DNA from: Cyanobacterium sp. HL-69
Lineage (GTDB): Bacteria > Cyanobacteriota > Cyanobacteriia > Cyanobacteriales > Cyanobacteriaceae
NCBI GenBank assembly: GCA_002813895.1
Contig: CP024912.1
Span: 1,054,001 to 1,118,000 of the forward strand
DNA: 64,000 nucleotides
Direction of reading: 5' to 3'
The position numbers and the translations under genes were made by a program. The notes under the pieces are model-generated. The model ran no database searches, was not told where the DNA came from, and was given only the letters and a program-made list of their open reading frames with translations. Shown piece by piece: positions 8,031-21,459 of the stretch. Each line of letters begins with the position of its first letter. The stretch's first letter is position 1.

Positions 8031-8980
8031 TAGTCACTTTACTTAAGTATGAACCAATCAAGGGTAAAATAATGGATGAAGTAATTATTTTTATATTTAA
8101 GTATAATGCCCCATGATATAGAATTAAGACAAAAAGTAATTGACTATGTAGAAAATAGAGGTAACGTAACAAAAGCATCGAGAATATTTGGAATATCAAG
8201 AGCATCAATATATAGATGGTTGAATAGAAAAGATTTAAGACCAACAGTGGTCAAAACTCGTCAAAGAAAATTAGATAAATCAGCACTATATGAAGATGTA
8301 GTGAAAAATCCAGATGATAAATTAATAGATAGAGCGAAAAAATTTGGAGTAACAATGTCAGCAATATCTCATGCATTCAAAAAAATGAACATAACAAGAA
8401 AAAAAAACAGTTACGTTATAGAGAAAGAAATAGAAAACAAAGAATAGAATACTTACAAAAATTAAGAGAATTAGTCAAAAAATACGGAAGTAAGAGTATG
8501 GTATTTATTGATGAGTCAGGATTTGAGGAAATAAGTACTTGCATTTATGGGTGGTCAAAAAAAGGAAAAAAAATTTATGATGAGAAACAAGGAAAACGAG
8601 GAAAAAGAGAAAATTTAGTAGCAGGAAGAAGAAAGAAAGAAAAAGATTTTATTGCTCCAATGATCTTTACAGGAAGTTTAAATGCAGAAAGTGTTGAATC
8701 ATGGCTAAAAATGTATTTATTACCATCACTAAAACAATTTTCAATACTAATAATGGATAATGCACCAATGCACCGAAAAAATATGATAAAAGAATTAGTA
8801 GAAGAAGCAGGTCATCTAGTAATGTTTTTACCAACTTATTCACCAGATTTAAATGATATTGAACACGATTTTAGTGCTTTAAAAAGAGCAAAAATGTATA
8901 GCGATAGTACAATAACTTTAGATGAAATAATTTATAATTATTGTACTAGCTAAATGTCTCAGTCTTATTTTGATTGACTA
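8031..8980 (+). mobile_element. IS630-family insertion sequence (950 bp), complete
   Basis: The ends read TAGTCAC... and ...TGACTA, imperfect terminal inverted repeats with TATAGTCA identical at both sides once the flanking TA is included, and scattered matches for another 17 bases. TA is duplicated at 8029-8030 and 8981-8982, the classic IS630/Tc1 target. The single transposase is encoded in two frames joined at a run of nine A's. The interrupted host gene is a DUF5615 toxin. The sequence appears capable of movement. Confidence 0.9.
8106..8953 (+). CDS. IS630-family transposase, two frames (predicted -1 frameshift)
   Basis: Frame A (8106-8447, 113 aa) is the N-terminal helix-turn-helix part: KASRIFGISRASIYRWLNRK. 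Frame B (overlapping in sense, ATG at 8498, stop at 8953) is the catalytic DDE part: VFIDESGF, ILIMDNAPMHR, and YSPDLNDIEHDF. At 8399-8407 there are nine A's; reading -1 there gives ...RKKKQLRYRERNRKQRIEYL... continuous with frame B, as in other IS630 elements. All three acidic catalytic residues are present, so the enzyme looks intact if the ribosome slips. Confidence 0.9.
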
Positions 8981-19705: not shown

Positions 19706-20005
19706 CTTATAACAATTTACTCATAATATTATCGATTATCTAATTATATAGGGAATGGGGAATGAGCCATAGGGAATGAAGAATGAGTGATAGATAATGG
19801 GTAATAGGTAATTAATTATTAATTAAATATATTATTTGATGAGGGTTTTAAATTTCTACAATAAATGATATAGCGTTTTTTATAATTATGAGATACATTT
19901 ATGATTTTCAAGTCCCCCTTATCAAGGGGGATTTAGGGGGATCATTTTGTATCCCGTAACCATGATAATTGCTATATATAGATTAACCAACACCATATTT
20001 TAAGT
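19706..20005. other. Intergenic region with repeats between HNH cassette and glyS
   Basis: These 300 bases hold a decayed GGGAATG-type array (about 19748-19830) and palindromic repeat copy 5. No ORF or RNA gene was recognised. It separates the end of the cassette from the glyS start. Confidence 0.65.
19911..19945 (-). repeat. GATCCCCC palindromic repeat, copy 5
   Basis: AGTCCCCCTTATCAAGGGGG followed by ATTTAGGGGGATCAT. This copy has a shorter core stem. It lies 61 bp beyond the stop of the HNH-like gene. Confidence 0.78.
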
Positions 20006-20494
20006 TTATAAATATTTACTTTTAATATCCTGTAACCTATTAGATAACATCTCCAATCTTTGCACCCCCTCATGCAAAAAATCATCACCTTTTTTTTGGT
20101 TATTTTCTCGGTTCATGGGCTTCCAATTGGTACAATCAAAAGTTAATGCAGGAAACCATTTTTTCGGTAATTGATGATCAATTGTCATGTCTGTATGCTT
20201 ATATTTCCAGTGTTTATAGGTGGGGTATTCTATATCACTAATTTCCAGATAACCACAGGCATATAAAGAATACAATACCGAAGCCCTGCCATAGTCAGTG
20301 CCACTATTATTATCATCATCAATAAAATTATCTAAATCTTGCTTTCTAGCAAAACTCATTTGATGAATTTTATAACGTTTTTGCTTTTGCCCTTTAAAGT
20401 TTAAGCCATATTCCACGAATTCAAAGTCAAAACAAAATAATTCCGATAATTCCTGCAATATTACTTCGTAACTTTCATACAAATCAATAAGCAT
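20006..20494 (-). CDS. Putative HNH-like endonuclease
   Basis: This 162-aa protein is not a close match to a family I know, but the C-terminal half has an HNH-like layout: TIDHQLPKKW (Asp106-His107), then CTNWKPMNRENNQKKGD (Asn123, Asn131/132, Lys-Lys-Gly-Asp). That spacing and the final KKGD resemble the beta-beta-alpha-metal fold, without the zinc cysteines. The N-terminal half is acidic and tyrosine-rich. It is the last gene of a three-gene leftward cassette, 21 bp after the 105-aa gene. A role in DNA or RNA cleavage, possibly in defence or conflict, is inference. Confidence 0.6.
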   Translation of the reverse strand: MLIDLYESYEVILQELSELFCFDFEFVEYGLNFKGQKQKRYKIHQMSFARKQDLDNFIDDDNNSGTDYGRASVLYSLYACGYLEISDIEYPTYKHWKYKHTDMTIDHQLPKKWFPALTFDCTNWKPMNRENNQKKGDDFLHEGVQRLEMLSNRLQDIKSKYL

Positions 20495-20515
20495 AGGTTT
20501 TCAGATAAATATTAT

Positions 20516-20833
20516 TTATTGATACTTCATTTTTAAAGCACTAATTACTTTTTTTCCTGATTTTAAGACTTCTATCAAATCATCACCTTCATTTGCTTTT
20601 TCATAATTTTCTTCAGCTTTTTGAATAGCAAAATCAACAAAGTCAATGGGTTTATTTACCATGTTGACTTGTAATAATTTCCAAGATTTAATAACATTTT
20701 CCCAACCCACATTATGATAACCTTTTTCTCTTACTATTTTTTGTTCAGATTTTTGAAGGTTATTAAAATGCTCGGAGTTTCTTTTTTGAGCTTGTCTATA
20801 GTTTAAATTATCGAAGCTATTTTGTTTTTTCAT
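20516..20833 (-). CDS. Hypothetical cassette protein, 105 aa
   Basis: I do not recognise this family. The protein is basic at its N-terminus (FDNLNYRQAQKRNSEHFNNL), has a GYHNVGWENVIKSW segment in the middle, and ends in a charged helix (KSGKKVISALKMKYQ). No signal peptide or membrane segment is visible. Its ATG overlaps the stop of the upstream gene by four bases (ATGA), which argues for translational coupling and a shared function with the flanking genes. Confidence 0.6.
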   Translation of the reverse strand: MKKQNSFDNLNYRQAQKRNSEHFNNLQKSEQKIVREKGYHNVGWENVIKSWKLLQVNMVNKPIDFVDFAIQKAEENYEKANEGDDLIEVLKSGKKVISALKMKYQ

Positions 20834-21294
20834 GCAATATCTTTGTTTCTTGAATCTCCGTATTTTTTTCTATATGCTTCCGCAATTTTGAGAGCATCAT
20901 CAACAACTTTTTCAGCTTTTTCTAAATCTTCTTTTACTGTTTCTGTGGATACTGCACCAATTTCTTTGAGAAGGGTATCATCTTCCTTTTTAACCTTTCC
21001 AAAAATATTTTTAAATTGTAAGACAATCTCACTTTTTGACCAATCAGTCATATTTTTAGTAATAGATTTAACCTTTGCCCTTAGCCCAAAGTTATCATTA
21101 TTGAGTTTTTTATTTATATCTGCTCTCTCATTTCTTTCTGCTAAAATTCTTAGTAAACTTTCCCTAGAAATAATAAATTGATCATTTTCTAAAAAGTTTT
21201 TAAGCTCTTGTTTTTTGAGATTTTTTAAATTAATTAATCGAAGTTCATTATGTCTTTCAAGAATCTGAGCCTCTAATTCTTCTCTTTTAATCAT
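20830..21294 (-). CDS. Hypothetical cassette protein, 154 aa, coiled coil
   Basis: I do not recognise this family. It is almost entirely charged helix: residues 1-50 (REELEAQILERHNELRLI) and 110-145 (VKEDLEKAEKVVDDALKIAEA) look like coiled coils, flanking a more mixed middle (SITKNMTDWSKSEIV). It has no cysteine and no membrane segment. It is the first gene of the three-gene cassette and overlaps the next gene by four bases. A structural or inhibitor role for the HNH-like protein is possible but unproven. Confidence 0.6.
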   Translation of the reverse strand: MIKREELEAQILERHNELRLINLKNLKKQELKNFLENDQFIISRESLLRILAERNERADINKKLNNDNFGLRAKVKSITKNMTDWSKSEIVLQFKNIFGKVKKEDDTLLKEIGAVSTETVKEDLEKAEKVVDDALKIAEAYRKKYGDSRNKDIA

Positions 21295-21428
21295 TTTTCT
21301 CGTGAATCAACTTGATTTAATATTTTACTAAATTTTCACTAAATTAATAAACTATGCTGATATTTTGACAGCAAACTTTACTAATCAATATAGTTTCATA
21401 TATATTTATTCTTCCCAAAAAATAAAAA

Positions 21429-21459
21429 ATCCCCTCACCTTTAAGTAAAGAGAGAGGGA
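21429..21459 (-). terminator. Terminator after ndk
   Basis: On the minus strand CCCTC...CTTT-ACTT-AAAG...GAGGG forms an interrupted stem followed by ATTTTTTATTTTTT. It lies 11 bp beyond the ndk stop codon. Confidence 0.6.

Follow-up and report, generated by a model that had tools for sequence, protein, structure and literature searches.

The described systems nearest to the locus analysed here are those of two HNH proteins, the effector PtuB of Septu and retron Ec78, and the PADLOC candidate PDC-M01B. PtuB is a small HNH protein encoded with a partner gene, an arrangement that recalls gene C below. In one survey (PMC11811056) many of the PDC-M01 detections coincided with Septu, and another article (PMC13096335) reports that Septu acts via tRNA cleavage.

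We have analysed a cassette of three genes in a 64,000-nucleotide stretch of the genome of Cyanobacterium sp. HL-69 (this whole stretch, at its full length, is called the window). The genes are designated A, B and C in the order of the operon. The chances appear about even that they make up an undescribed accessory HNH nuclease operon of cyanobacteria, in which A and B are obligatory partners and whose role would most likely be defence. No description of an A-B-C cassette was found in the open-access literature searched.

Organization of the cassette

The features are as follows, in window coordinates.

20006 to 20494, minus strand: gene C, 162 aa, predicted zinc-less HNH-type nuclease (open reading frame, alignments, hhalign, Pfam HNH relatives)
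20516 to 20833, minus strand: gene B, 105 aa, small and all-helical (open reading frame, 27-row alignment, AlphaFold2)
20830 to 21294, minus strand: gene A, 154 aa, charged, helical/coiled-coil-like, first in the operon (open reading frame)
19771 to 21451, no strand: approximate limits of the cassette, with about 68 bp instead in the sister genome G004 (blastn of the window against the G004 locus L098)
21430 to 21453, minus strand: terminator-like hairpin after ndk (consensus match only)

Genes A, B and C run leftward through positions 20006 to 21294, exactly as a sequence-only reading of the window had laid them out: three minus-strand genes of 154, 105 and 162 aa, with an overlap of 4 bp between A and B and a gap of 21 bp between B and C. 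They lie between the terminator region of ndk, upstream, and the leader of glyS, which is reached downstream past an AT-rich spacer. Since the terminator-like hairpin (a match to the consensus) follows ndk, the trio is probably a transcription unit separate from this gene. The GC content of the trio is 28.8%, vs. 37.9% over the window as a whole and 38.9% within glyS. The dN/dS values between the window and the congener G003 are low (0.08 for A, 0.17 for B and 0.19 for C), so that all three are selected as proteins, under purifying selection. The dN of the trio in this same comparison is four to five times that of ndk.

A palindromic repeat on the 3' side of the cassette, already remarked upon in the sequence-only reading, is real (CCCCCTTATCAAGGGGGATTTAGGGGGATC, about 19911 to 19943) but not specific to the cassette, because ten copies of it are dispersed in the genome, some of them on two small contigs. 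We have therefore rejected it as a part of the cassette, to which it is unrelated. Elsewhere in the window (about 8106 to 8953, equivalent to 2107 to 2954 of L012) there is an apparent transposase in two reading frames.

Gene C, a predicted HNH-type nuclease

The last gene had been described as HNH-like, and its identification as an HNH-type nuclease is now well supported by comparison with its relatives. Three branches of C have been distinguished among 53 trios: branch I, with the zinc-less C of the window type (10 trios), branch II, in which C has CP-C-x-x-M and CW-CN (26 trios), and branch III, in which C has CP-I/V-C (17 trios). Branches II and III contain recognisable zinc-type HNH domains; the C of branch III scores above the Pfam HNH cut-off (30.3 vs. 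21.4 bits) and that of branch II just below it. In the window branch the zinc cysteines have been lost and the residues D-H, N, N and K kept. The C profiles of branches I and II align over the HNH core with an hhalign E value of 4.4e-8 and a probability of 95% (aligned stretch MTIDHQLP...FDCTNW...N--K-DD).

The core of the window C reads T-x-D106-H107...F-D-x-x-N123...N132-x-x-K135-x-D137. In an alignment of 23 C proteins there is no variation at H107, N123 or N132 and almost none at D106; these residues of the signature first proposed have held, but N131, offered along with them, is not conserved. The pattern DH...N...NxxK is found in 50 of the 53 C proteins, two of the exceptions having R in place of K and the third Y in place of D106. 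The latter is the C of G008 (L010, 9021 to 9506), in which the catalytic D106 is replaced and the remaining trio is intact.

Residues 99 to 146 (approximately) of the window C match HNH endonucleases of PHROGs and PDC-M01B of PADLOC (best 2e-5). This protein has no match in Pfam, and profile similarity to known HNH domains was seen only via its relatives. Its AlphaFold2 model has a pLDDT below 50 over residues 89 to 119 and 135 to 143 and gave no useful fold match; since it is too unreliable around the HNH core to show a beta-beta-alpha-metal fold, the nuclease assignment is one made from sequence.

Genes A and B

Gene A, first described as a charged coiled-coil protein, is indeed charged and helical or coiled-coil-like. 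A central S-E-I motif is conserved in it (8-row alignment), and the Walker A motif was found in none of 53 A proteins. Between branches I and II the alignment of the A proteins is weak and limited to the SEI motif (probability 15%), so that their homology is suggested by position, not proven. Gene B carries the motif LNYRxxQxRNxxxF...GYxNxGWxxVxxSWxIL (27-row alignment), and alignments of eight trios show strong conservation in B and in the C-terminal half of C. The AlphaFold2 model of B is a confident one (mean pLDDT 85.8) and has five helices. No PDB or viral structure matched this predicted fold at E <= 0.001, and the B family has no credible sequence match in Pfam or PDB.

None of the three proteins of the window has a confident match in Pfam, NCBIfam or PDB, and neither A nor B of the window matches PADLOC, in which the A and B proteins of the other branches gave only spurious helical matches. 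Weak resemblances of A and B to families such as DivIVA, EF-hand and centrosomin were put down to helical noise and rejected. A search of Rfam for an RNA component gave no match. The sequence-only reading had assigned none of the three genes to a known family. For A and B this holds in the libraries searched; C has the HNH core.

The trio as a unit

Searching with the window C retrieved the trio from seven other cyanobacterial loci (four GTDB contigs, G003, G008 and G140), always in the order A-B-C; the three matches of the window C within the class were all trios. This recurrence marks the three reading frames as genuine genes. A first profile of B, run over 293 genomes of the order, detected relatives in 55; a broader one, run over 390 genomes of the Cyanobacteriia, did so in 77 (about 20%). 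At 53 of the 62 distinct B loci, B is located between an upstream A and an HNH gene C, with constant order and strand and with median intergenic gaps of 9 and 10 bp. A gene in the A position precedes B at 56 of the 62 loci, the upstream gene being accepted as A in this survey by its position and not by a shared profile. The neighbours of B are nearly always a helical or coiled-coil gene on one side and an HNH gene on the other.

Profiles of the branch-II A and C proteins were run against 215 genomes, where the intact matches, 15 for C and 14 for A, were all at trio loci bearing B. The two other matches to C contain stop codons (G521 and G009) and the one other match to A is a fragment in G521 adjoining the decayed C. 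Because intact branch-II A and C were found only at B-bearing loci, gain and loss seem to affect the trio as a whole, and by these counts the three genes travel together. The pairwise distance matrices of the three proteins show correlations of 0.89 to 0.91 overall and of 0.52 to 0.91 within single branches, which are partly expected from the common descent of any adjacent genes.

Several loci depart from this pattern. The decayed branch-II remnants, with stops inside C, are at G521:C1:1698491-1698920 (with the A fragment adjoining) and G009:C60:62328-62681. Two related genomes have an orphan B, without A or C (L018/L078 and L020/L081), one near apparent rRNA genes and the other near a CobW-like GTPase. 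At L036 (1713 to 2603) gene A is apparently split over two frames and is whole in close relatives. Diverged versions, possibly a fourth branch, are present at L088 (4135 to 5367), L089 (6471 to 7709) and L086 (4775 to 6025); they have a short A, a B that is small or undetected, and a C of about 195 to 217 aa with CPVC and CNxxK. The public record of the contig L003 names Candidatus Gracilibacteria; this label is probably wrong, since GTDB places the contig in a cyanobacterial phylum set.

Genomic setting and mobility

The trio had been proposed to be an accessory insertion between glyS and ndk, and the sister genome G004 has an ndk-glyS interval without it. At the DNA level ndk is 96% and the start of glyS 94% identical between this genome and the window; in G004 the two genes are adjacent and about 68 bp replace window positions 19771 to 21451. 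Since the trio of G003 also adjoins ndk, loss in G004 and gain in the window genome are equally likely. The one junction examined (window vs. G004) showed neither terminal repeats nor target duplications.

Most chromosomal copies stand alone between housekeeping genes, and most insertion sites differ between species. The trio is found at ndk/gyrA in G003, at alaS/chlD in G008, beside gatA in G140, at rnz in L001, at a khpB-like gene in L002 and L004 and at a Dps-like gene in L003 (flanking gene names were read from translations). Closely related trios beside cysK indicate that in at least one genus the trio has been passed on vertically. Trios are also present on five cyanobacterial plasmids, one of them typed as conjugative and one carrying the trio beside a type I restriction system, and G008 has a branch I trio on the chromosome and a branch II trio on a plasmid.

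Outside cyanobacteria, the search for relatives covered plasmids, viral contigs and phages. Neither the phages nor the viral contigs yielded a substantial relative covering C, and we have rejected an origin as prophage or phage cargo. As for company with known defence genes, no clear enrichment was seen: 102 genes flanking trios showed no excess over 101 control genes, a small sample, in PADLOC matches at E <= 1e-15 among the 25 families listed.

Possible function

A defence nuclease, one of the roles raised in the sequence-only reading, is the most likely identity because the operon is obligate, mobile, patchy in occurrence and fast-diverging and has two dedicated partners; defence is thus probably its role. 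C would be the HNH nuclease effector. A and B would be made in step with C and would most likely assemble with it, either keeping it inactive as long as no trigger arrives or bringing it to its target. That target could be invading nucleic acid (phage or plasmid), cut directly, or alternatively host nucleic acid such as tRNA, cut in an abortive response. We infer the formation of a complex, the control of C by its two partners, the substrate and the role in defence; informative homologues of A and B being absent, the jobs proposed for them derive from their association with C. Defence is favoured by the closest named HNH cores, which are those of the defence effectors PtuB and PDC-M01B, and disfavoured by the lack of island enrichment, by the copies among housekeeping genes and by the G008 trio with D106Y. 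A more specific version, to which we would give somewhat less than an even chance, is that of an ATPase-free family of three-component immune nucleases with at least three branches, one of them zinc-less, in which A and B would sense invasion and switch on the HNH effector.

It is unlikely, in our opinion, that the trio is a selfish cassette in which C, a free-standing homing-type HNH endonuclease, would spread the three genes from one intergenic site to another by cutting empty alleles and A and B would help in targeting or repair. The solitary intergenic position of the cassette and the empty orthologous site in G004 speak for such an element, and in a few species a flanking gene is common to trios that are diverged from each other or belong to different branches (PatZ-like in L001/L094, cobM in L021/L090 and cofG-like in L067/L131), possibly by cassette exchange at one site. 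However, this sharing amounts to four to five pairs, where a small control would lead one to expect about 1.3, the sites mostly differ between species and the junction with G004 bears no terminal repeats or target duplications. There are, moreover, two additional obligate genes, which homing endonucleases are not known to have.

The tight operon with its translational overlap, the plasmid copies and the B genes found without A and C (L018, L020) could also suggest a toxin/antitoxin or addiction module, with a toxic nuclease C neutralised by A and/or B and stabilising plasmids or genomic regions. We regard this as improbable, given that the obligate genes are three and not two, that the only orphan partner is B, in two related genomes, and that the trio has been kept on chromosomes in the long term under purifying selection. 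Slightly less probable again is a facultative complex for DNA repair, recombination or uptake, which would fit the absence of defence-island enrichment (102 vs. 101 genes), the chromosomal placement amid housekeeping genes and the vertical keeping in at least one genus (beside cysK), but not the patchy occurrence (about 20%) with absence from sister genomes, the plasmid copies, the co-occurrence of branches within a single genome, the low GC or the fast divergence.

The trio and its relatives are present in about one fifth of the sampled cyanobacterial genomes, and only C has a known domain in the libraries searched. A defensive role would make it a widespread immune system, with a compact HNH effector controlled without an ATPase, in hosts whose blooms and contribution to ocean production are shaped by phages. 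If not defensive, it would be an uncharacterised nuclease complex or mobile cassette, made testable by its natural empty sites and plasmid copies.

Comparison with known systems

The HNH core of the branch-II and branch-III C proteins resembles those of PtuB (Septu and retron Ec78) and PDC-M01B, the models of which matched at 3e-7 to 2e-10. The window C matches PDC-M01B at 2e-5, and PtuB (8ee7) was the sole PDB lead of the C family profile, with an E value of 0.023. The likeness does not run full length and is confined to the core, about 45 to 75 residues, and the zinc cysteines are absent from the window-branch C. The trio has no counterpart of the PtuA-like ATPase of Septu (53 of 53 A proteins are without Walker A), nor has Septu counterparts of A and B. 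With no ATPase and a similarity limited to the HNH core, the trio is not Septu, and we have rejected this identity. Among the anti-phage systems of PADLOC 2.0.0, no system model had all its components matched by the trio. Compared with the Pfam HNH family (PF01844), the C of branch III is above the cut-off and that of branch I has D-H, N, N and K, the window C itself being undetected. The cassette has in common with the free-standing phage HNH/homing endonucleases (PHROG HNH) the HNH core and the intergenic position, and differs from them by its two obligatory extra genes.
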